Shown piece by piece: positions 25,635 to 38,247 of a stretch of 64,000 nt of DNA. Every line of letters starts with the position of its first letter. Positions within the stretch are counted from its first letter, which is position 1. The translations under genes and the position numbers were made by a program. The DNA lies in NCBI RefSeq assembly GCF_000242915.1, contig NZ_AFRZ01000001.1, forward strand, positions 1,178,001 to 1,242,000, read 5' to 3'. The notes under the pieces are model-generated. The model was given only the letters and a program-made list of their open reading frames with translations. It was not told the origin of the DNA and searched no databases. This DNA comes from Sulfurimonas gotlandica GD1 (GTDB lineage: Bacteria > Campylobacterota > Campylobacteria > Campylobacterales > Sulfurimonadaceae).

Positions 25635-26024
25635 GTGAGTATATTTGCCCTACAATCACCGGCGGGTGGTTTTTTAGATGAAGATCTAAAACGCTTTAAT
25701 AAGGAGTTTGATGACTGGTGTGTCCAGTTTGACAGCTTTGAAGATGCTAATATTATTGCACAAAGTCTTGACAAAAAAAGAACTGCAGATGTTATTGAGA
25801 TTACACCACTTAGTTACCCAAAGTACTTTTTTCACACTCTAAAAGGGATCATACATGCAACAAGACAAATCGAGGATAAGATTATATGCATTGTTGAGCC
25901 ACATATGGGTCAAAACTTTCGCATCGCAGTGTGTGATTTAACTACAAAAAATGTAAGAATTACAAATACCAGCTATAAAAATGTACTGAGCGTAGAAGGT
26001 GCATTTGCACATTTTGAGATATAA
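25635..26024 (+). CDS. Hypothetical protein, 129 aa
   Basis: Not recognised. GTG start with GAGG at 25623-25626. A compact soluble protein without a signal peptide: LQSPAGGFLDEDLKRFNKEF, then FHTLKGIIHATRQIEDKI and a beta-rich end (IVEPHMGQNFRIAVCDL). It lies inside the accessory island between the comM remnant and def, upstream of the broken hydrolase gene on the same strand. No function assigned. Confidence 0.65.
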   Translation: MSIFALQSPAGGFLDEDLKRFNKEFDDWCVQFDSFEDANIIAQSLDKKRTADVIEITPLSYPKYFFHTLKGIIHATRQIEDKIICIVEPHMGQNFRIAVCDLTTKNVRITNTSYKNVLSVEGAFAHFEI

Positions 26025-26086
26025 AATAAAAAGATATAATAAAACTTTGTAGCCAATATATGAACACAAAGGATTAGGTTAAAACT

Positions 26087-27119
26087 ATGAGAATCTTGTG
26101 CATGGACTTGGGTCTAATGGTTCTAAAAGTTGGGATGCGATTAGTGATGAGTTTGCAAAACATTACCACATCGTCACTTTTGATTTACCTGGATTTGGAG
26201 AGTCTCTAGTCCTGTTTGATGTGCCAGCATCTCCTGAATCCTATTCTGGACTTATTATGAGGATTGTTTCTATATATGCAAAATCGAAAGTCATTTTTGT
26301 TGGTCATTCAATGGGAGCGGCTATTGGTCTACGCTTCATAAGCTATAATCCAAACGTGGTAGACAAAGCAATTTTAATTGATGCCGCAGGTATCCTGCAA
26401 AAAACTGCCTACACAAAGTTTCTGACTAAAATAGCTCAAAAGAAAAGCCCTGATAATAATCACCAAGCGAAAACTTCCGCCGTCAACACATTAAACACGT
26501 TCACAGATATATGGGTAGAAATGTTTGATACATTTTCATCTATCAAAACTATTAAAACTCTTTTCCAAGATAATATGGACGCACAGATTGCAATAAATCT
26601 AATAGAAACTGATTTTACTGATGACTTGAAAAATATTCAAACCAAAACACTGCTTATCTGGGGTGAGGATGATCATGTTGCCCCTCTAAGGACTGCAAAG
26701 ATGCTCAATTTTCATTTAAAAAACTCAAAGCTTATCGTACTGTCTAACGGCGGTCACACTCCTCGTATTAAAACACCAAAAGAAGTCGCAACAATTGCAG
26801 CAATGTTGAGCTTAAAAATGTCAGTGCTCGCAGTATTGAACTCAATAACACTGTAGCATCTTTAGAAAATGTAAAAATAGTTTCCAATCAAACGGGGCTT
26901 ACTGCAAACGAGTCTAGTGTGATGAGTACAAACATGGTAATTGATGCTTCTGTAGGCATTCATACCAACGAGTCAAAGTTGGATTTAGCAGGAACAATCA
27001 TCAATTATAAAATAGATCCAATCAACGGCTCAGGCAGTTTGATATATTGGTCCACAAGCTTTCAATCAAAAAACGGACAGCCAACTAAAACTATCCACAG
27101 AAAACAAATTCTACATTAA
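26087..27119 (+). pseudogene. Alpha/beta hydrolase with beta-helix-like tail, frameshifted
   Basis: One gene apparently broken in two places. The main frame (GTG 26098 to stop 26856) encodes an alpha/beta hydrolase: HGLGSNGSKSW oxyanion loop, nucleophile Ser in VGHSMGAA, Asp in WGEDDHVAPL and His in SNGGHTPR. After about 26800 the protein continues in another frame (ANVELKNVSARSIELNN and onwards, to stop 27119) as short repeats typical of a right-handed beta helix. At the 5' end, ATG AGA ATC TT (26087) is one base out of frame with GTG CAT GGA; MRILVHGLGSNG would be a natural start, with AAAGGATTAGG upstream. Two one-base losses explain both breaks; assembly errors would look the same. Confidence 0.7.
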
Positions 27120-27132
27120 ATACTAATAGAAT

Positions 27133-27657
27133 CTATTTAGAGCTTTTCTTCTCTTTTTGCATTCTTTTATACTCTTTTTCAAACTTTTTTCTTCTAGCGT
27201 ATGAGAGTTTATCTATAAAAAGTATGCCTTTTAAATGATCTATTTCATGCTGAATAGCTACACTAAGTAAGCCGTTTGCTTCAAGAGTCTTTGTATTTGC
27301 ATCTCTGTCTTGATAATTTACAGTGATATTTTCAAATCTTATTATATCTTCATAAAAACTAGGAACACTCAAGCAACCCTCTTGATAAACAATCTCCCCG
27401 TCTTTTTTTACAATAATAGGGTTTACCATCTCAATAAGGTTTTCTATTGGCTGTTCACCATCTTCTTCTGGAATGTTTAATATCAAGACTTGTTTAGGGC
27501 GAGCAACTTGAATAGCTGCTAGGCCAATACCATTTGTTTTAACCATAATAGGATACATTGCATCTAGAAGATCATGCAACTCTTTGTCAAATTTCTCAAC
27601 TTTTTCAGATATCTGCTTTAATATCTTATCTGGATATTCTACTATACTTAAATTCAT
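27133..27657 (-). CDS. def: Peptide deformylase
   Basis: Removes the N-formyl group from new proteins. 174 aa, with the three motifs GIGLAAIQVA (near 43), EGCLSVP (near 94) and QHEIDHLKGILFIDKL (near 134), supplying the Cys and two His metal ligands. Conserved minus-strand order tig-clpP-(GGDEF)-def, normally followed by comM in this class (as I recall for Helicobacter pylori); here the island at 23771-27119 separates it from comM. Confidence 0.97.
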   Translation of the reverse strand: MNLSIVEYPDKILKQISEKVEKFDKELHDLLDAMYPIMVKTNGIGLAAIQVARPKQVLILNIPEEDGEQPIENLIEMVNPIIVKKDGEIVYQEGCLSVPSFYEDIIRFENITVNYQDRDANTKTLEANGLLSVAIQHEIDHLKGILFIDKLSYARRKKFEKEYKRMQKEKKSSK

Positions 27658-27667
27658 CTATCTGCTG

Positions 27668-28735
27668 TTACTCTTTTTCTGTATTTTGTGCTGATCTCTG
27701 TCTCAATGAAACTGCAAAATCTATTTTTTTATCACTATATGCTTTTTCAATTCCATCCATAGCACTTACCACTATCTCTTCAACTGTGTAAAGAGTAGCA
27801 ATATCAGTAATACCGATAGAAATTTTTAGCTGTATCTCACGATCTGCCAAGAAAAAGTTAGAGTTTGAAACCAATTCACAAAGTCTTTCACTAGCTTTTA
27901 GTGCACTCGGTATATCTGTATGTTTTAGAAGCATTGCAAAAACGCCATTACCATAGTGAGCTACCGTATCACTTCTTCTTGAAGTTTTCAGTAAAAGTCT
28001 TGCTATAGTTCTGGTCATTAAAGTAATTGCTTTTTCGTTGCTAACACTGTCTTTTAACTCACGTGATAGTTCTATCATGATAAGTGAACTTTTGTGTTTA
28101 AACTCAGTAATAAGCTCTACTTCTTGCTCTATTTTTGTCATTAAATAACGTTTGTTATAAACGCCAAATTTATTATCAAAAATAGTTTCATTCTCTACAT
28201 TTTTTACTATCTTTGCTGTTTCATCGTAAAGAGTTTTCATTTGTAAACTCTGTTTTTTCAAGATACTATTTAACTTCGAGACATCACCTTCTAAAGATGC
28301 GGCTATACTGGCAGCAGCTTGAATCTCAGTGTTTGCTTGAAGTTCTTTTTTTCTTTTATCAAGAATTTTTGTCATTAGTGCCATGTTTTTGTAAAGGTTG
28401 GCAGTAACGCTCAAGATGCTTTTTACAGATCCAAACCCTTTTTTCAAACTCTGCTCAAGCATGATAGTGTTTTCATCATCATTGCTCTCTTCGAGTTCAA
28501 GCATAGACTGAATCTGTTTACGAAGATTTTCACTCTTGTCTTCTAGAAGTCTATCAAAATAGAGTGAAAAATTATTTGGAGTAGGTGGCAAGTTATCTGA
28601 GATAAGAGCACTAAGTACCTCTTTAGAATATATTTCTAAGTCACTAGTAGGCTCATCCATATCTAAAGCGGCAACAATTGGTTCATTTGTTGCATTAACA
28701 TCACGACGATTTCTACTTCTTAAAGATCCTGCCAT
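27668..28735 (-). CDS. GGDEF-fold protein with degenerate active site
   Basis: 355 aa. The N-terminal 150 residues are helical and charged (coiled-coil-like, TANLYKNMALMTKILDKRKK); a GGDEF-type domain follows, from FDNKFGVYNKRYLMTKIEQE to ISIGITDI. The catalytic GGDEF loop is replaced by YGNGV in DTVAHYGNGVFAMLL, so diguanylate cyclase activity is unlikely; it may bind GTP or c-di-GMP or act as a scaffold. It sits between clpP and def, 10 bases from each, so it is part of the protein-quality-control operon. Confidence 0.85.
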   Translation of the reverse strand: MAGSLRSRNRRDVNATNEPIVAALDMDEPTSDLEIYSKEVLSALISDNLPPTPNNFSLYFDRLLEDKSENLRKQIQSMLELEESNDDENTIMLEQSLKKGFGSVKSILSVTANLYKNMALMTKILDKRKKELQANTEIQAAASIAASLEGDVSKLNSILKKQSLQMKTLYDETAKIVKNVENETIFDNKFGVYNKRYLMTKIEQEVELITEFKHKSSLIMIELSRELKDSVSNEKAITLMTRTIARLLLKTSRRSDTVAHYGNGVFAMLLKHTDIPSALKASERLCELVSNSNFFLADREIQLKISIGITDIATLYTVEEIVVSAMDGIEKAYSDKKIDFAVSLRQRSAQNTEKE

Positions 28736-28744
28736 ATTATCCCC

Positions 28745-29335
28745 TTACTCTTTATCGTTTTTAACTAAAACCTCATCAATCATACCATACTCTTGAGCTT
28801 CTGAAGCACTCATAAAGTTGTCACGATCGGTATCTTTTTCTACTTTTTTAACACTTTGACCTGTGTTCTTAGCCAATATTTCGTTTAGCTCAGCTTTCAT
28901 ACGAAGAATCTCTTTAGCTTGAATAGCTATGTCTGTTGCCTGACCTTGAGCACCACCAAGAGGTTGATGGATCATGATACGAGCGTGAGGAAGAGCATAT
29001 CTCTTACCTTTCTCACCAGATGAAAGTAAAAATGCACCCATAGATGCGGCTTGTCCTATACATATAGTAGTTATATGTGGACGTATATAGTTCATAGTAT
29101 CAAAAATAGCCATTCCTGCAGTAACAACTCCACCAGGAGAGTTTATGTAGAAATAGATATCTTTCTCTGGATCTTCTGCTTCAAGAAATAGCATCTGTGC
29201 AACTATAGAAGAAGCTACGGCATCGTTAACTTCTCCGCTTAGCATAATAATTCTATCTTTTAAAAGACGAGAGTAGATATCATAAGAACGTTCTCCACGA
29301 CCTGTCTTTTCTACTACATAAGGAATATAACTCAT
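28745..29335 (-). CDS. clpP: ATP-dependent Clp protease proteolytic subunit
   Basis: 196 aa, standard length. The Ser-His-Asp triad: Ser in [14 protein letters not shown], His in [18 protein letters not shown] and Asp in the [14 protein letters not shown] segment. It forms the barrel that degrades proteins fed by ClpX or ClpA. Its ATG follows the tig stop by 2 bases, so trigger factor and ClpP are made together. Confidence 0.98.
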
Positions 29336-29337
29336 AC

Positions 29338-30639
29338 TTACGCTTCTTTTATCTTTGAGTTAAGAAGTTGGCTAAGAACTTTATCTTCAACCATTGACAT
29401 CTGTACTGCTGGAATATAACCAGCATTTTTATACTGCTCATAAGCTTTTTGAGGGTCTTGACCCATTTGCATTGCTTCATAGTAGATAGTCTGCATTACT
29501 TCTTGTTCTTCAACTTTAACATTTTCAGCATTAGCTAGTGCATCAATAATAAATGTAGCTCTTACACTTCTCTGTGCATCTTCACGGAAAGTATCACGAA
29601 GCTCGTTTAATTTCTCTTCACTATCACGAAGTTCTTGAATCTCTTCTTCACTCATGCTTTGAGCTTTTCTGTTTAATGCCATATCAATCTCTTGATCTAC
29701 AACAAACTCTGGAAGGTCAAATTTAATATTTTCAACAAAATTCTCAAGAAGAGCTGGTTTTAAGTCATCATTATAAAGTTTTGCCAACTCTTCATTCTCA
29801 ATTTGAATTCTAACTTGCTTTTGTAGTTCTGCTAAAGTTGCATTTTCATCACCTGGAAGCATTTTCTTAGCTAACTCATCATCGATTGCCACTTCATCTT
29901 TAACTTTGATACCATTAACTTTTACTTTAAATGAAGCAGCTTTACCAGCTAATTCTTTACCACCATAGTTTTCAGGAAAAGTTACTTCGATTACAACTGC
30001 TTCATCTCTTTTTACGCCGATTAGTTGGTCTTCAAACCCTGGGATAAACTGACCTGAACCTAAACGAAGCTCGAAATTCTCAGCAGTACCGCCTTCAAAT
30101 ACTTTACCATCAACAGAACCTTCAAAATCAATAACAGCAGTATCGCCATCTTTCATTTTACGGTTTCTTGCAACTTCTATTAATGGAGCTTGAGCTTCTG
30201 CTAAGTCTTTGATTCTTTTTTCAACAGCTTCATCACTTACAGCTGGCTTATCAAACTCTTTAATCATTGAAGAATAATCACCAAGCTCTATAACAGGTCT
30301 CATAGCAACTTTAACTACTACTTCAATTTTGTCATCACTCTTGTCAAATTTAGAAATATTTGGTTCACCAATAAGTGCGTCATTAGAAATATTTAATTCT
30401 TCTAACCCACGAGCTAAAACATCACGAAGAGCTTCAGCTTCAGCATCTTGAACAAGTCTTTCACCATATTGTTTCTTAACAATAGCTACAGGCACTTTAC
30501 CTTTACGAAAACCTTGAATACTAGCAGTTTTTGCTAATTCTTTAGCAATCTTTTCTAAGTTAACATCAATAACTTCTCTTAATATTGTCGCCTCTATAGT
30601 AGCGTTAGCACCGTCTATTTTATTTGATTTGATTTCCAT
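29338..30639 (-). CDS. tig: Trigger factor
   Basis: Ribosome-bound chaperone and prolyl isomerase, about 433 aa. The N-terminal ribosome-binding signature (QGFRKGKVP near 43), the FKBP-type domain ([21 protein letters not shown] near 160) and the helical C-terminal domain are all present. I chose ATG 30639, with AAGGAAA 5-6 bases upstream, over a TTG one codon earlier. First gene of the tig-clpP-GGDEF-def operon. Confidence 0.96.
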
Positions 30640-30738
30640 CAATTTCCTTTTCTTATATCTATAGTTGTATTTTTGACTATTATTTTTGGTAATAATATCT
30701 AAAATCTGCTTTTAAGTATCTTTAATAGTATTTCTAAA

Positions 30739-33126
30739 CTAAAAGGCACTGCCCGTCAGTTGAAATGCTGCCCAATAGTAAGGATGCTTATATTTCATTT
30801 TAGTAGTAAGCTGAGCTTGTCGTAAAGCATCTCTACTATTTTGTTGTTTCATATTTTTATAAAATTCTTCCATTAGATATAGGGTTCCAGAATCATCAAC
30901 TTTCCATAAACTTGAGACAATAGACTTTGCACCTGCATATAAAAAGCCCCTTGTTAATCCAACTACATCATCTCCATTACTTACTTTTCCAAGTCCTGTT
31001 TCACAAGCACTAAGAGTAATAAGGTTAGCATCTAGCTTTAAGTCATACAGCTCACTGGCACTCAAATAACCATCATTTTTATCATCTTTTGCCATCATAA
31101 GACCGGACTTCAGCGGCGTTTTTGTATCAAACGTACCGTGTAGAGCAAAATGAAATTGGTTAAAATTTCCTGATAATTTCTTAAACATAGTTTCTGTAGC
31201 TTGTTCCCTTACCAATGCTTTTGTGTTAGGAACAATACCCGATATTGCTTGCACTTCTTTTTGAGCTCCCGGCAAATCATATTCACTATTTCTCAAATCA
31301 GGATTACCAAAAGCCAACAACTTTACAGATTTAGTTTTCTGAGATGGTTTAATAAATTTCATTACGGTGGCACTTGGTAAAATTCTAATCCCGTAATCAT
31401 CTATCAAAAAAGACTTACCTGAGGATAATGCACTAAAGGGAAGATAATGCAATCTACCATGTGGAATAATTACTATGTTTTTTGTAACTAGCATTTTCTC
31501 TAATGGTTTTACTAAACGATTATAAAGACTCTTTGACAAAAGCTTATAGTCATCAACATCTGTTGATTGCAGTGCTATTCTAAAACTTTTTATTTCATCA
31601 TCTATAGCATCTATATTAAGCTTGAAACCTTTTATTTTATCTTGATTGACTACAAAAGCATAAAAAGTATCTCCATGATAATAATACTCAACTATAACTT
31701 CTCCATTTTGAAGTATCTTCTGAGTATCTTTTACATTAATGGCATTGACTGTAACTAAAGAAGCAAACTCTTTATCTTCTGTCTGTATCTCGTTTTTAAT
31801 GAGTTTAAGTGATCTTTGTTTACTTGCATAAGCTTCAGATGCTGATGTATTCATTGCCAATAACTTAGTATCCGCTTTTTCTAATTCACCTAAGAGTTTT
31901 TGAGTTTCTTTTGTATCTACTATATTTGATGAAAAGTTTTGCTTCGAAGCTAGCATATCTACTAGGGCTCTTGATTTTGAACGTTCTACATACTCGAATG
32001 CAAGAGAATACTCTCCACTTTCAAATAAAGTTTTAATAATATCTTTATATACTGCTTGCTTATCTCCGACAAATCCTATCTTATTTGCTTCAGAATGAAT
32101 TGATGAGCGTTGCTCTTCAATAATATCAATGGCTTTTTTAAAATACTCTACAGCTTTACTACTCTCTGAATCTCTATATGCTATTTGCCCTAAATCATAC
32201 AAGCAAATTGTATGCATTTCACCACTTGCTTTTATTTTTGGTTTTTCTAGTAATCTCAAATATTCTTTTTTTGCTTCTTTTATTTTGCCTAATTCAAATA
32301 ATGCTTTTGCAAACATAAAATGTGTAGGTAGGATAAAAACATCTTGATTTATTTTACCAAGAATTACCGGTGAAAAATCATGCGATGGATATTCTTTAGT
32401 GATTAAATTATAGACTTTATCGTAATCTTTTAATGCCATATACATTGATGATTGCATCCATATGTAATTGGACATAAGCATGCGACTGCCCATGCCTCTT
32501 TTTTTCATTGCTGCTTTATCAGATGCCTGATTTTTCATGACTACTTCTAGAAGCTCTCTTGCTTTAGCCTCTTGATTATTATGTGCATAAGCAATTACTA
32601 AAGGGGCATCTGCTGGATTATCTTTTAAGAAATTAGAAGCTGCTGGTAGTTTAAACTCATTTCTCGCTCTCTTAAGCTCTAATATTGCTTTATCAAATGA
32701 TGACAACTCTAGGTATGCTTGTGAACGTATATATGAAATCAGAAAAGCGCCATCCATAACTACAATAGTTGTATCACCACTATCATATTTTGTTTGCATC
32801 TTATCGACACAGGAAAATGTTTTATTATAATTTTTTACTTTTAAATAAGACTGGCAAAGATTACTAAGTTCAGTTAAATTAATTTGATTAGTAGGCTTCT
32901 TATTACTTTCATAATGGTTGATTATTTCATAATATTTACTTTCGTTGTAAAGTTTTGTAATATGCTGAGGAGCTATAGACATTTTTCTAATGCTAGGAGT
33001 ATAATCAGGTCTATCAGGCACTGTATAATTTGCAAACGCTGGCTTTCTTGTGCCTTGGCAAGCAGTTAAAAAAATCAAACTGCTAAAAAGAGTCAAAAAA
33101 AGCATCATTGATTTTAATATTTTCAT
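30739..33126 (-). CDS. CHAT-domain TPR lipoprotein
   Basis: 795 aa. A lipobox signal (LIFLTACQG, lipidated Cys near residue 23) places it in the envelope. Residues about 60-370 are TPR-like repeats (for example LYDLGQIAYRDSESSKAVEYFKKA), then a coiled-coil stretch, then a C-terminal CHAT (caspase-like) domain: HGRLHYLPFSAL, catalytic His663 in FALHGTFD and Cys708 in LSACETGLG, then LTRGFLYAGAKSIVSSLW. The full dyad implies an active cysteine protease. TPR-CHAT proteins are best known in cytosolic defence and cell-death systems; a lipoprotein version points to a periplasmic substrate. Its ATG overlaps the stop of the small lipoprotein gene upstream. Confidence 0.92.
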   Translation of the reverse strand: MKILKSMMLFLTLFSSLIFLTACQGTRKPAFANYTVPDRPDYTPSIRKMSIAPQHITKLYNESKYYEIINHYESNKKPTNQINLTELSNLCQSYLKVKNYNKTFSCVDKMQTKYDSGDTTIVVMDGAFLISYIRSQAYLELSSFDKAILELKRARNEFKLPAASNFLKDNPADAPLVIAYAHNNQEAKARELLEVVMKNQASDKAAMKKRGMGSRMLMSNYIWMQSSMYMALKDYDKVYNLITKEYPSHDFSPVILGKINQDVFILPTHFMFAKALFELGKIKEAKKEYLRLLEKPKIKASGEMHTICLYDLGQIAYRDSESSKAVEYFKKAIDIIEEQRSSIHSEANKIGFVGDKQAVYKDIIKTLFESGEYSLAFEYVERSKSRALVDMLASKQNFSSNIVDTKETQKLLGELEKADTKLLAMNTSASEAYASKQRSLKLIKNEIQTEDKEFASLVTVNAINVKDTQKILQNGEVIVEYYYHGDTFYAFVVNQDKIKGFKLNIDAIDDEIKSFRIALQSTDVDDYKLLSKSLYNRLVKPLEKMLVTKNIVIIPHGRLHYLPFSALSSGKSFLIDDYGIRILPSATVMKFIKPSQKTKSVKLLAFGNPDLRNSEYDLPGAQKEVQAISGIVPNTKALVREQATETMFKKLSGNFNQFHFALHGTFDTKTPLKSGLMMAKDDKNDGYLSASELYDLKLDANLITLSACETGLGKVSNGDDVVGLTRGFLYAGAKSIVSSLWKVDDSGTLYLMEEFYKNMKQQNSRDALRQAQLTTKMKYKHPYYWAAFQLTGSAF

Positions 33127-33623
33127 CTTCTAATAGCTTTAAATAATGGCTTAGAATCTATTATTTTACATCCTTCTCCATCTTTATAATTACCAGAGAG
33201 ATAGTCTACATGATTCCCTAGACCATGAGGTCTAGAAGAGGTCATTAGATGATACTCTGAAGCAAAACTACCATCTGGTCTTATTAAAATATAATACCAC
33301 TCAGCAGGCTCTACTATACCCATAAGTAAACCTATTGTATCTTTTTGTAGTGTGGTACCTGATTTAAAACCAGATCCATCAGTTTTTAAATTAGAAAAAT
33401 CTTTAGGGAGTAGTCTTTGCCCCTTACGCAGAGTAAATATTCTTTTTTCAATGTCAACTTGAAGTGAGCATTCAGTGTCATACTCTACTTCATATAAAAG
33501 TGAATGTGCCTGATAATGACGAGGATTAACAACCTTAGCTTCTCTTTTCATTGTACAGCCAGACACTAAAAGAGCCAATACACCAATTGATATAACTACC
33601 CAATATTTCATAACCTTTTCCAC
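33123..33623 (-). CDS. Small lipoprotein, partner of the CHAT lipoprotein
   Basis: 166 aa. A type II signal with lipobox LLVSGC (Cys near 23) is followed by a mature domain I do not recognise, with a single strong block SSRPHGLGNHVDYLSG near the end and paired cysteines (one near 53, one near 152) that could form a disulfide. It is translated just before the CHAT gene and overlaps it (TGA/ATG), so the two probably act together in the periplasm, for example as substrate, regulator or assembly partner; that is inference. Confidence 0.8.
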   Translation of the reverse strand: MEKVMKYWVVISIGVLALLVSGCTMKREAKVVNPRHYQAHSLLYEVEYDTECSLQVDIEKRIFTLRKGQRLLPKDFSNLKTDGSGFKSGTTLQKDTIGLLMGIVEPAEWYYILIRPDGSFASEYHLMTSSRPHGLGNHVDYLSGNYKDGEGCKIIDSKPLFKAIRR

Positions 33624-33651
33624 CTTTATAGTTTTAAAAGATTATAGCATA

Positions 33652-34107
33652 TTACTTTTTGCAGAGCTTCGGCTTAAAATTCAAAACCAAAAACCATACA
33701 ACCGCCACATCTATCATCACATCAGCGAAGTTAAACACTGCAAAGTCAAATCCACAGTGCCAGTAAACCATATCTACTACTCCACCATGAACAAATCTGT
33801 CATACACATTTGAGAAAGCTCCGCCAAGCATCAAGCCTGCAGGAAAAGCGAAACATATCTTCTTTAGATTTATAATGTAGCCCAAAATGCCTATAACAAG
33901 CACTAACTGAATGTACTTTAACCACTCATCTAAAAAAGCCAGCATAGAAAATGCCACGCCTTTGTTATAAACCAAGATCAGATCGATACAATCAGTGTAG
34001 TAGCGAAAACCATCTACAAAGAGCATCTTTATATTTTGGTCAATTATAAAAATCCCTGCCAATGTAAAAAAAAGTATGGCACTAAGTTTTAATGTAGTGT
34101 TAGGCAT
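33652..34107 (-). CDS. lspA: Lipoprotein signal peptidase (signal peptidase II)
   Basis: 151 aa with four membrane helices. The catalytic Asp motifs are [11 protein letters not shown] (near 96) and [11 protein letters not shown] (near 127). It cleaves prolipoproteins, such as the two lipoproteins encoded just downstream. It overlaps the end of glmM by 8 bases. Confidence 0.96.
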
Positions 34108-35440
34108 TTAAAGCTTTTTGAAAAAATTCTACCATGTCATCCATATTTGAGTTCATCTCTTTTGCATCTTTACACTCAAGCAGAACCCGAAGTTTATTTT
34201 CTGTTCCAGAATATCTTATGAGGTGGCGAATATTTTTTGCATCTAATTCTTTAAGTTTTGCATCTAATCCATCAATCTTATTTAATGGCATTTTAGTCTT
34301 AATGTTAATATTTACAAGCTTTTGAGGGTACAAACTAAATGGTCGGAGAGCTTCAGATGCTTTGCTCTTTGTGTTTATAAGTAATGCAAGAGTTTGAAGA
34401 GCACTTACAAGCCCATCGCCAGTTTTTGCAAAATCATTTACAATTACATGCCCACTCTGCTCGCCACCAAAGTTAATGCCCTCTTTTTTCATAATCTCTA
34501 AAACATTTTTGTCACCTACATCTGAGCGAAATAGTTTCAGTCCTTTAGAGCCCATAAAATCTTCTAGAGCTTTATTGCTCATTACAGTAGAAACAATTCC
34601 GCCGCCTTTTAATACACCTCTATCGTTCATGTAAGAACCAAGTGCACCTAAAAGCTGATCTCCATCTATAATCTCTCCATTCTCATCCACCACAACAAGT
34701 CTGTCAGCATCTCCATCAAGTGCTATTCCCAAATCAGCCCTAAACTTGACAACACTCTCACACAAATCTTTTGTATGCAGTGCTCCACAGTTTTCATTGA
34801 TATTAAATCCATCAGGTTTATTGTGCAGTACAACTACATCAGCGCCAAGCTCTTCCAATACAGTTGGTCCTACTATATAACCAGCTCCATTTGCAGCGTC
34901 AAGAACTATTCTCATACCACTTAAAGAGAGTTCTCTTGGAAAAGAATTTTTAAGAGCAACTATATATCGCCCTATTACATCATCTATTCTTTTTGCTTTA
35001 CCAATATTTTTTGCAGTAACTTGAGCTTCTTGTATTCTCTCATCATCACCGTAGATAGCTTCAATCTCTGCTTCGACTTCATGAGATAGTTTATCTCCAT
35101 GTCTATCAAAAAATTTAATTCCATTATCTTCATATGAATTGTGAGATGCACTAATCATAATACCAGCATCACATCTCATATTTTCTGTAATAAAAGCGAT
35201 AGCCGGGGTAGGCATTGGCCCTATTTCAATAACATCGTAACCAATTGCTGTTAAACCGCTAACAATTGCATTCTCTATCATATATCCACTTCTACGAGTG
35301 TCTTTACCAATTAAAATTCTGTTTGTCGTTGAGTGGGCTTTAAAGTATATCCCTGCTGCCATTGCAATTCTCATCGCTAAAGTAGCACTTAAAAAAGAGC
35401 CAGCTTCACCTCTTACTCCATCTGTTCCGAATAATTTCAT
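34100..35440 (-). CDS. glmM: Phosphoglucosamine mutase
   Basis: Interconverts glucosamine-6-P and glucosamine-1-P for UDP-GlcNAc, a precursor of peptidoglycan and LPS. 446 aa. It begins [12 protein letters not shown]; the phosphoserine loop is [19 protein letters not shown] (near 95-113), the metal loop is [11 protein letters not shown] (near 240) and the sugar loop is GGEQSGHVI (near 325). First gene of the glmM-lspA pair, divergent from rpsT. Confidence 0.97.
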
Positions 35441-35575
35441 AGTAATTCCCAGTTTTAAAGTTTCATATTTTAGCGCAAATAGCTTAATTATTGCAATTTA
35501 CCTTGTCTTTAACTTAATTTTAATTATCTTTAAGCTAGAATTGCGCACTAAAAAATTAATGAGAAGGACTCATGC

Positions 35576-35836
35576 ATGGCAAATCACAAGTCATCAATTA
35601 AGAGAATTCGCCAGACTATCGTTCGTACAGAGCGTAATCGTTTCTATAGAACTCGTCTTAAAAACATCGTAAAAGGTGTGAATTCTGCGGTTGAAGCAGG
35701 AAATAAAGAAGAAGCAGCTGCGGCACTTAAAGTAGCTAACAAACAAATTCACAAATTTGTAAGTAAAGGTATCTTAAAAAAAGAAACTGCAGCTAGAAAA
35801 GTTAGTCGTCTACACAAATCTGTAAACGCTATATAA
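35576..35836 (+). CDS. rpsT: 30S ribosomal protein S20
   Basis: 86 aa, basic and helical, starting [14 protein letters not shown] and ending [10 protein letters not shown] as usual for bS20. AAGGA precedes the start. A -10-like TAGAAT lies at 35536-35541. It is 15 bases upstream of prfA and probably co-transcribed with it. Confidence 0.97.
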
Positions 35837-35851
35837 TAAGAGCATAAAATA

Positions 35852-36919
35852 ATGCTCTCAGATAAACTTAATCCGTTTATCAACCGTTATAACGAACTTA
35901 GTGAACTACTAAGTTCGCCTGACATAACTTCTGACATCAAGAGGATGACAGCTCTCTCAAAAGAACAATCTTCACTTTTACCAATTGTTGAAAAAGCAAA
36001 AGAATACAAATCTATAATTAAGCAAATTGCTGAAACTAAAGAGATGTTGGGTGATCCTGAAATGATTGACATGGCGAAAGAAGAACTTAAAGAGCTTGAG
36101 CCTCAGATTCCACTTATAGAAGAAAGTATCAAACTTCTACTTCTACCAAAAGATCAAAATGATGATAGAAATATTATTGTTGAGCTTCGTGCTGGAGCTG
36201 GTGGAGATGAAGCTGCTATCTTTGTAGGTGATCTTTTTGATGCTTATACTCGCTATGCTGAAGTTAAGGGTTGGAAAGTTGAACTTTTAAGTACTTCTCC
36301 ATCAGATGCTGGCGGATTTAAAGAAGTTATTGCCCTTATTAAGGGTGACCAGGTTTATAGCAGGTTGAAATATGAAGGTGGAATTCACCGTGTTCAAAGA
36401 GTTCCAGAAACAGAATCACAAGGGCGTGTACACACTTCAGCTATTACAGTTGCTGTTATGCCTGAGGTTGATGATGTTGAAGTCGTAATAAATGAAAATG
36501 ATCTTAAAATCGATGTTATGCGCTCTTCTGGTTGTGGAGGTCAGTCTGTAAATACTACTGACTCTGCTGTTAGGATTACTCACTTGCCAACAGGTTTAGT
36601 GGTAACCAACCAAGATCAGAAATCTCAACATAAAAATAAAGAAAAAGCAATGAAAGTTCTCAAAGCTAGACTTTATGACTTAGAGATGCAAGAGGCTCAA
36701 TCTAAAGATAGTGAGGCTCGCTTAGCACAAGTTGGATCTGGAGACAGAAGTGGAAGAATTCGTACTTACAATTATCCACAAAATCGTATGAGTGATCACA
36801 GAATCACGCTTACACTTTACAGACTTAATGAGATTATGAATGGTGGACTTCTAGATGAAGTTATTGAACCGCTTATTACTGATCATCAAGCAAAAATTGT
36901 TGAGGCTGCTGGGTTATAG
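35852..36919 (+). CDS. prfA: Peptide chain release factor 1
   Basis: Recognises UAA and UAG and releases the finished protein. 355 aa. The hydrolysis motif GGQ is in [19 protein letters not shown] (near 225-243); the codon-recognition domain precedes it and the C-terminal [19 protein letters not shown] is typical of RF1. Its stop overlaps the convergent dapF stop by 6 bases. Confidence 0.97.
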
Positions 36920-36926
36920 AACCCAG
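36909..36926. terminator. Hairpin spanning the convergent prfA and dapF stops
   Basis: CTGGGTT (36909-36915) pairs with AACCCAG (36920-36926) around ATAG. The stem covers both stop codons, so both mRNAs would end in the same small hairpin. No long T-run follows. Confidence 0.4.
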
Positions 36927-37657
36927 TCGGTTTCAAAAGTCTTTTTAACTCTTCCTCTAAAAGTAATCGTTTTATCATTCATTCCAAGATATAGAGTATC
37001 ACCACTTTTAGGGTAAACTTCAATATTATTAGTTACTTTTTCTTCTGTGTAAGCTCTATAAAAACATGCAGCCATTCCAGTTCCACAGGCTAAAGTTTCA
37101 TCTTCAACCCCACGTTCATAAGTTCTGACTTTTAAGTTTTTACCATCTAAAGAGACAATATTAACATTTGCATTATATTTGTATCTTAACTCTCTAGCTT
37201 CCGCTATATCAAACTCTTCTATATTTTCAGTGAGATGAACCAAATGAGGAACACCAGTATCTATTAACCACCAAGATTTACCATTAATCTCTATATTTTT
37301 TTCCAATATCTTAGGTGGAGTAAGTTCACTTAAAACCATATCACCATCAACCTCGGCTTTTATAATGCCTGCACCTGTTAAAAAACTCATACTACTAGAT
37401 GCCAAGTTATTCACATATGCATAGTGAGCACAAGCTCGAGAACCGTTTCCGCACATATCTGCATGACTACCATCAGAGTTGTAAAACTGCCATTCAAAAT
37501 CATAATCACTATTTGGAACTATTACTATTAAACCGTCAGCACCGACTCCGTCTTGACGGTGACATAACTCTTTTGCCAACTCAGTTCTATCTTCTTTTAC
37601 ATCTGAATGAAAGACTACAAAATCATTTCCATTTGCACTATATTTTGAGCATCTCAT
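36914..37657 (-). CDS. dapF: Diaminopimelate epimerase
   Basis: Converts LL- to meso-diaminopimelate for lysine and peptidoglycan. 247 aa, slightly short but complete. The two catalytic Cys are in [10 protein letters not shown] (near 67-76) and [11 protein letters not shown] (near 190-200). Start overlaps the coaE stop, so dapF is coupled to coaE. Confidence 0.96.
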
Positions 37658-38247
37658 AAGTATTTAGCCTTTATATTTTCTACAAAATCTTCAACTTCTT
37701 GCTGAAGATGTTTTAAGTTTTTAGAATTGTCTATAACCCAAGTAGCTCTATCTTTCTTATCATCTATTGGCATCTGAGAAGAAATCCTTTTTAAAGATTC
37801 TTCTTCCGAATAACCATTTCTTTTCATGAAACGTTCTAGCTGTATTTCTGCTGGAGTATATACTACAACACTCTCTTTAATATCATAAGAACCTTTTTCA
37901 AAAAACAGTGGGATATCTATAAGGTATGGGAATTTAAATGTATCTTGCTTGATGCTTCGTTTTTCTATTTCATCCCTAATTTTTGGATGCAAGAAATCTT
38001 CTAAAATCTTTTTTTGCTCATCATTTGAAAAAACCAAACTTCCAAGCTTAGCACGGTCGACTTTGGAACCATTGAGATAACTATCACCAAAAGTCTCTTT
38101 AACCCAAGATATGGAAGCATCTAATATTTCATGTGAGATGCTATCTGCATCTATAACCCTCATGCCGTTTAAGGCGAGCAGAGATGCCACAGTACTTTTT
38201 CCTGTAGCAATCCCGCCAGTTAATGCGATAGCGTACTCAAATGCCAT
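37654..38247 (-). CDS. coaE: Dephospho-CoA kinase
   Basis: Last step of coenzyme A synthesis. 197 aa. P-loop GGIATGKSTVAS (11-22), ADSISHEIL, and the LID/CoA region VVYTPAEIQLERFMKRNG near 130-147. Sits between the SpeE-like gene (15 bases upstream) and dapF (overlap), forming a three-gene unit. Confidence 0.96.
   Translation of the reverse strand: MAFEYAIALTGGIATGKSTVASLLALNGMRVIDADSISHEILDASISWVKETFGDSYLNGSKVDRAKLGSLVFSNDEQKKILEDFLHPKIRDEIEKRSIKQDTFKFPYLIDIPLFFEKGSYDIKESVVVYTPAEIQLERFMKRNGYSEEESLKRISSQMPIDDKKDRATWVIDNSKNLKHLQQEVEDFVENIKAKYL

Follow-up and report, generated by a model that had tools for sequence, protein, structure and literature searches.

The window, by which we mean the whole stretch of 64,000 nucleotides of Sulfurimonas gotlandica GD1 analysed here, contains on its reverse strand two overlapping genes set between lspA and tig, of which the first encodes a small lipoprotein and the second a larger lipoprotein that joins a helical region of the TPR type to a CHAT domain (Table 1). 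The two genes share 4 bases (ATGA), as the earlier note on this DNA had observed, and both score as coding in their own frame (0.208 for the CHAT ORF and 0.199 for the small one), with negative values in the other frames tried. The small ORF, at 33123-33623(-), can be read as 166 aa from a GTG at 33623 or as 162 aa from an ATG at 33611, and, judging from the ribosome-binding region, the ATG is the more likely start.

Table 1. Features of the two-gene locus, with their positions in the window
Feature	Position	Strand	Evidence
TPR-CHAT lipoprotein gene, 795 aa	30739..33126	(-)	ORF, profile match, coding score, structure model
CHAT caspase-like domain, residues 531-793	30748..31536	(-)	PF12770 profile
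Catalytic Cys708 codon (predicted)	31003..31005	(-)	sequence, family alignment, Craspase alignment
Catalytic His663 codon (predicted)	31138..31140	(-)	sequence, family alignment, Craspase alignment
TPR-type helical superhelix, residues about 54-393	31948..32967	(-)	profile, model, fold match
Cys91...Cys106 hairpin, predicted disulfide	32809..32856	(-)	family alignment, model helices
Lipobox Cys23 (LTAC|Q), predicted lipidation site	33058..33060	(-)	sequence, aligned Cys column
Signal peptide, residues 1-22	33061..33126	(-)	sequence, home-made rule, hydrophobicity
Small lipoprotein gene, 162 aa, no family match	33123..33611	(-)	ORF, coding score, profile scans
Lipobox Cys19 of small lipoprotein (VSGC|T)	33555..33557	(-)	sequence
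Two-gene insertion between lspA and tig	30739..33611	(-)	same-genus locus comparison

The CHAT domain is recognized by the profile PF12770 with E=7e-70 and 236.2 bits, against a cut-off of 24, and the His663-Cys708 dyad that had been read in it is intact, both residues being where they had been placed. Together with S706, W741 and D745, they are invariant in 14/14 aligned family members, and they align with H585 and C627 of the TPR-CHAT protein of Craspase, the numbering given for its dyad in the available text of the corresponding paper (PMC9729208). The fusion of this domain to a TPR region is likewise borne out (TPR_2 at 30.3 bits, its cut-off being 27). Among solved structures, the AlphaFold2 model of the protein (pLDDT 78.4, pTM 0.75) best matches Csx29 of Craspase (7y9x; Z 29.4, rmsd 5.2, 523 residues aligned), with which it has in common the TPR superhelix, the CHAT fold and the His-Cys dyad, as well as a separase domain (5fby; Z 26.8, rmsd 2.9, 301 residues aligned), the anti-σ factor DdvA (8rot; Z 22.3, rmsd 6.2, 562 aligned, model residues 49-792) and the gingipains R and K (Z 18.4 and 17.1, respectively). 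The latter are secreted, Arg/Lys-specific cysteine proteases that work outside the cytosol, and they are caspase-fold relatives without the TPR part. A fold match alone shows no function, and the proteolytic activity of the TPR-CHAT lipoprotein is a prediction from its dyad, its fold and the analogy with Craspase and separase.

Some hints about specificity may be obtained from the S1 pocket. According to the available text on Craspase, the position of its residue K670 is occupied in the eukaryotic separase, which has the same caspase-like fold, by an Asp that reads the P1 Arg (PMC9729208). The window protein has Leu749 there, and the 14 members have Leu, Ser, Ala, Gly or Arg at that position, never Asp or Glu, so the acidic residue expected for a P1 Arg is absent. 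This speaks weakly against cleavage after Arg or Lys, and only weakly because the Craspase orthologues themselves cut at dissimilar sites, as the accessible part of a further study states (PMC11106740). In the 14-sequence AlphaFold2 model, the loop 709-719 after Cys708 is the sole stretch of the CHAT domain with a pLDDT under 50, which may reflect flexibility or mere model uncertainty.

The export of this protein is indicated by the lipobox that had been noticed before, LTAC, with Cys23 following a hydrophobic segment. Residues 3-22 form the sole strongly hydrophobic segment of the protein (the best 19-residue mean beyond residue 23 is 1.14), and the aligned lipobox Cys is present in 8/12 orthologues with a readable N-terminus. 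A second indication comes from Cys91 and Cys106, which lie at matching heights on the neighbouring hairpin helices 84-96 and 100-115 of the model; among the 15 clade members with coverage, 13 have both and two (L029 and L033) have neither. Since these two share one fully supported branch, the absence of the pair counts as one joint loss rather than two. The alignment and the model suggest a disulphide bond and an oxidising compartment. The earlier placement of a caspase-like protease in the envelope is supported at the level of sequence by the export signal, the lipobox and the intact dyad, while its activity stays at the level of prediction.

To place the protein in its family, a scan with one genome per species was performed, which kept at least 80 loci out of 582 candidate stretches. 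At least 13 orthologues match at least residues 172-792 (E 4e-139 or better, 35-41% identity), and they come from Beta-, Gamma- and Alphaproteobacteria, several lineages of the “Deltaproteobacteria” and Rokuibacteriota. In a quick, midpoint-rooted tree of 110 CHAT rows, the window protein, the 13 orthologues, the fragment L036 and two Azospirillum proteins form a branch of 17 rows with an SH-aLRT of 97, outside which the fragments L043 and L045 fall. An export signal is found in 15/15 members of this clade with a readable N-terminus (L024 and L036 have none), as judged by a home-made rule and by eye, the rule leaning towards “exported” because it picks, among the possible start codons, one that gives a signal. 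Eleven of these proteins are lipoproteins and four have Sec type I signals, which is a counterpoint to a lipid-anchored reading of the clade as a whole. The rule assigned type I signals to L031 and L034, although they have LQGC lipoboxes by eye, and missed L032, so that these cases were settled by eye and from the aligned Cys column. Export is also frequent in the wider sample, about half of the CHAT loci looking exported (52/97: 47 by rule and 5 by eye), in a sample drawn with an exported query and in which L024, with an in-frame stop close to the end of its contig that cuts off the N-terminus, is counted as non-exported; in the tree and one further comparison, the status of 7 loci was set by eye. 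Within the sample, L052 lies on a contig titled as a Klebsiella pneumoniae MAG, and the tree places its CHAT gene among cyanobacterial and Chloroflexota rows; the label is probably wrong.

The same tree and the gene order bear on the origin of the pair. In the genus, lspA and tig are directly adjacent in 21/21 of the loci fetched (glmM-lspA and then tig), and only the genome of the window has the pair between them. A full-length match to the CHAT protein is absent from 59 other genomes (4 with partial matches) and from 396 other genomes of the phylum (8 partial matches, the scoring being limited to 2 candidates per genome). The tree contains 15 further CHAT rows from the phylum, one being the second CHAT protein of this very genome; all of them lie outside the 17-row branch, and vertical inheritance within the phylum is not supported. 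The gene pair is therefore best read, from its insertion site and its position in the tree, as a two-gene insertion gained by transfer. As to the vehicle, a foreign base composition was considered and found not to be distinctive (GC 0.32-0.34 in the insert, 0.35 in the window), and a link to phages or plasmids was rejected: neither protein has a PHROGs match to E 0.1, the small one has a single match at E 0.07 to a Vibrio phage ORF annotated as NUMOD4 motif-containing, and the plasmid searches gave nothing to E 0.1 with the small protein and no place covering 80% of the CHAT protein. Two genes inserted into a gene order that is conserved elsewhere lend themselves to a clean removal.

TPR-CHAT proteases have been studied as cytosolic immune switches, and one could ask if the window protein is one of them, akin to those of Craspase or CHAT-gasdermin systems, and its signal peptide spurious. 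We regard this as very improbable. The fold match to Csx29 is accompanied by a match to the Csx29 family NF041237 (E 2.3e-16), which reaches 59.8 bits against a cut-off of 300, and PADLOC returns only a weak TPR match (E 0.12). In the available text on Craspase, the TPR-CHAT protein is bound to an RNA-guided effector (PMC9729208). Around the pair, the ORFs of at least 80 aa overlapping 26000-38000 are by eye mostly housekeeping genes, with no apparent Cas7-11 or Csx30 gene among them, and, as regards CHAT-gasdermin defence, the small protein beside the CHAT gene has no Pfam match to E 1 and a model too poor to tell its fold. Csx29/Craspase acts in the cytosol, bound to that effector, and, unlike Csx29, the window protein carries a lipoprotein signal, its export signal being shared by all the readable members of its clade.

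One of the structural relatives is DdvA, from Myxococcus xanthus (8rot and 8rw5), according to the title of the structure entry a transmembrane anti-σ factor, with its TPR-CHAT part fused to transmembrane and anti-σ parts; the entry title makes it probable that the TPR-CHAT part is periplasmic. Where the second CHAT protein of the genome aligns weakly with DdvA (E 0.27), the letters of the His and Cys motifs are present in DdvA. An alternative for the window protein is thus that of a sensor or scaffold rather than a working protease, in which a periplasmic TPR-CHAT protein would sense an envelope signal, as that part of DdvA may do, and the small lipoprotein, whose gene overlaps the CHAT gene, would relay it. 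DdvA matches nearly the whole model, which is in favour of this idea. Nevertheless, the lipoprotein of the window stands alone, with no second hydrophobic segment that could serve as the transmembrane helix of DdvA and no space for a cytoplasmic anti-σ part ahead of its signal peptide, and a dyad that is invariant in all 14 aligned members would be unusual for a pure scaffold. We consider such a role unlikely, albeit worth bearing in mind.

The nature of the small lipoprotein is a separate matter. It has a lipobox (VSGC, Cys19) after a hydrophobic segment and, as had been stated, is a lipoprotein of no recognized family: Pfam, PADLOC and NCBIfam gave nothing to E 1, a DUF4384 assignment was rejected with a home-made profile (about 0 bits), and the single-sequence model (pLDDT 35.6) is uninterpretable. 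The earlier note had proposed it as a dedicated partner of the CHAT protein, a proposal that would lose its ground if the small gene were absent beside most homologous CHAT genes. This is what is found, as far as can be seen: no relative appears in the flanking DNA fetched for the 13 full-length orthologues (with almost no upstream contig for L024), none credible in their genomes (two of the 13 gave matches at E 0.09 and 0.34) and none in the sample of 396 other genomes of the phylum. A further scan of 150 genomes found 0, an empty answer that shows nothing, as it was run with no positive control. A dedicated partner as a rule of the family is hence rejected, and a partner role is kept as a possibility for this genome. 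In favour of the latter, the genome has a second pair, on contig 1 at about 677-680 kb between secF and leuS (L136:7032-10365), in which the gene of a 245-aa lipoprotein overlaps that of an exported 868-aa CHAT protein with a Sec signal. No such pair was seen at 18 other secF loci of the genus, which were fetched in part; in 14 of these 18, leuS follows secF, and 3 of the other 4 end at contig ends. The two CHAT proteins of the genome align over the CHAT region only (28.5% over 319 columns), and their companion lipoproteins do not resemble each other (BLAST best E 2.2). Both pairs follow genes of the export machinery, lspA and secDF.

Whether other exported CHAT genes also have exported neighbours was examined across the sampled loci. 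An exported ORF lies directly upstream of 20/54 exported CHAT ORFs and of 4/38 of the others (Fisher 0.0072), although some of the 20 are doubtful, one being a sulfate permease and others overlapping or being CHAT genes themselves. Taking one CHAT gene per locus and leaving out genes over 1000 aa and the neighbours in the window itself, the 68 genes adjoining exported CHAT genes (52 loci) include ShlB/FhaC 12 times, DUF4384 4 times and CHASE2, CsgG and DUF928 twice each; catalase and DJ-1 also occur among them, in 3, with no envelope meaning. None of those five families was matched two or more times among the 58 of 61 control neighbours scanned from non-exported CHAT genes (45 loci), where subtilase is found in 7 and σ70 region 2 in 7. 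The remaining 3 (two from L019 and one from L081) were dropped because their CHAT genes lie in the two-partner-secretion branch, and one of those from L019 is annotated as ShlB, so that the control would contain one ShlB or more if it were retained. When the whole fetched stretch is counted, the home-made DUF4384 profile is found at 8/52 exported and 0/45 other loci (Fisher 0.0067). Both Fisher values are too favourable, because the loci are related. Exported CHAT genes thus tend to keep exported company, and the kind of company varies. On the non-exported side, acidobacterial CHAT genes (L054, L055, L059, L061, L068 and L078) lie, by eye, directly after ORFs resembling ECF σ factors.

For the small lipoprotein of the window, these results leave a dedicated role as inhibitor, substrate or activator of the CHAT protein tentative and rather doubtful: the ATGA overlap, the export signals of both proteins, their common insertion between lspA and tig, the second pair of the genome and the exported ORFs upstream of other exported CHAT genes argue for it, while the lack of relatives in the orthologue flanks and genomes and in the phylum, the unrelated lipoprotein of the second pair and a fold that could not be predicted argue against it.

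The abundance of ShlB/FhaC among those neighbours leads to another explanation, that is, a protease for the maturation or clearance of surface-secreted proteins. Loci with CHAT, ShlB and haemagglutinin genes are present in two Caballeronia plasmids and, by eye, in the phylum itself (L153), and barrel-like ORFs (by eye, with C-terminal Phe) lie directly upstream of the CHAT genes of L035, L032 and the Azospirillum loci L018 and L021. Three of these ORFs, scanned singly, nonetheless matched no Pfam family, and no such gene is apparent by eye beside the pair in the window. The two-partner-secretion proteins of Caballeronia, Paraburkholderia and Variovorax are likewise CHAT-TPR proteins, and the home-made rule finds a signal peptide in most of them, but they have ShlB as a neighbour and, by the same rule, no lipobox, and these Burkholderiales rows, several of them near-copies, form a branch of their own in the tree. 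For the window protein, we find this explanation quite improbable.

Taken together, the evidence leans modestly towards a cysteine protease that is lipid-anchored, faces the periplasm, can be switched and was gained by transfer, the small lipoprotein serving as a local accessory. After export, the large protein would be anchored by a lipid on Cys23, and its TPR superhelix and CHAT domain would lie in the periplasm, as its sequence and the covarying Cys pair suggest. The outer membrane would be a likelier anchor than the inner one, because the +2 residue is Gln and not Asp, although the +2 Asp sorting rule for lipoproteins comes from E. coli and may not hold in this host. On the model of Craspase and separase, the protein would act as a regulated cysteine endopeptidase: a particular envelope protein would dock onto the TPR superhelix, this docking would order the mobile loop after Cys708 and thereby provide the switch, and the substrate might be cut at a non-basic site. 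The small lipoprotein would be a co-translated, lineage-specific accessory (a ligand, an inhibitor or a substrate) rather than a fixed part of the family.

The earlier note had also seen in the pair a possibly undescribed system, a view that can be kept only in part. With exported CHAT proteins frequent in the sample and DdvA as a structurally solved relative, the protein in the window represents a variation on a kind already known. Nonetheless, no lipoprotein or periplasmic stand-alone CHAT protease was found described in the titles and abstract beginnings searched, which cover few subscription journals. The TPR-CHAT proteins of the supported 17-row branch stand alone, look exported and for the most part lipid-anchored, and combine an intact dyad with a probable structural disulphide; they would place the switch in the cell envelope. 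As a more speculative extension, which we regard as no better than possible, exported CHAT proteases, perhaps together with C14 ones, could form a widespread and largely undescribed class of envelope proteolysis with local, exchangeable exported partners (a small lipoprotein, a DUF4384/CsgG lipoprotein, a FecR/CHASE2 sensor, or a barrel or two-partner secretor), which would parallel, in the periplasm, the immunity of Craspase and CHAT-gasdermin systems; the pair in the window would be one lipoprotein-lipoprotein version of it, with the small lipoprotein as the partner regulated or cut.

Some further observations come from the sampled loci. The genome of the window also encodes a WD40 protein with a C-terminal Peptidase_C14 caspase domain (E 3e-18) and, by eye, a signal peptide (L160:5709-8579). 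At L161:4820-9493, the N-terminal part of a 1094-aa WD40 lipoprotein resembles residues 2-74 of the 245-aa lipoprotein of the second pair (41%), and its gene adjoins one with weak DUF4384/FlgO/LPP20 matches. Finally, in other genomes of the phylum (L158, L164 and L166), CHASE2-like, FecR-like and exported CHAT genes stand in a row, the CHASE2 of L164 being confirmed by Pfam and the others recognized by eye.
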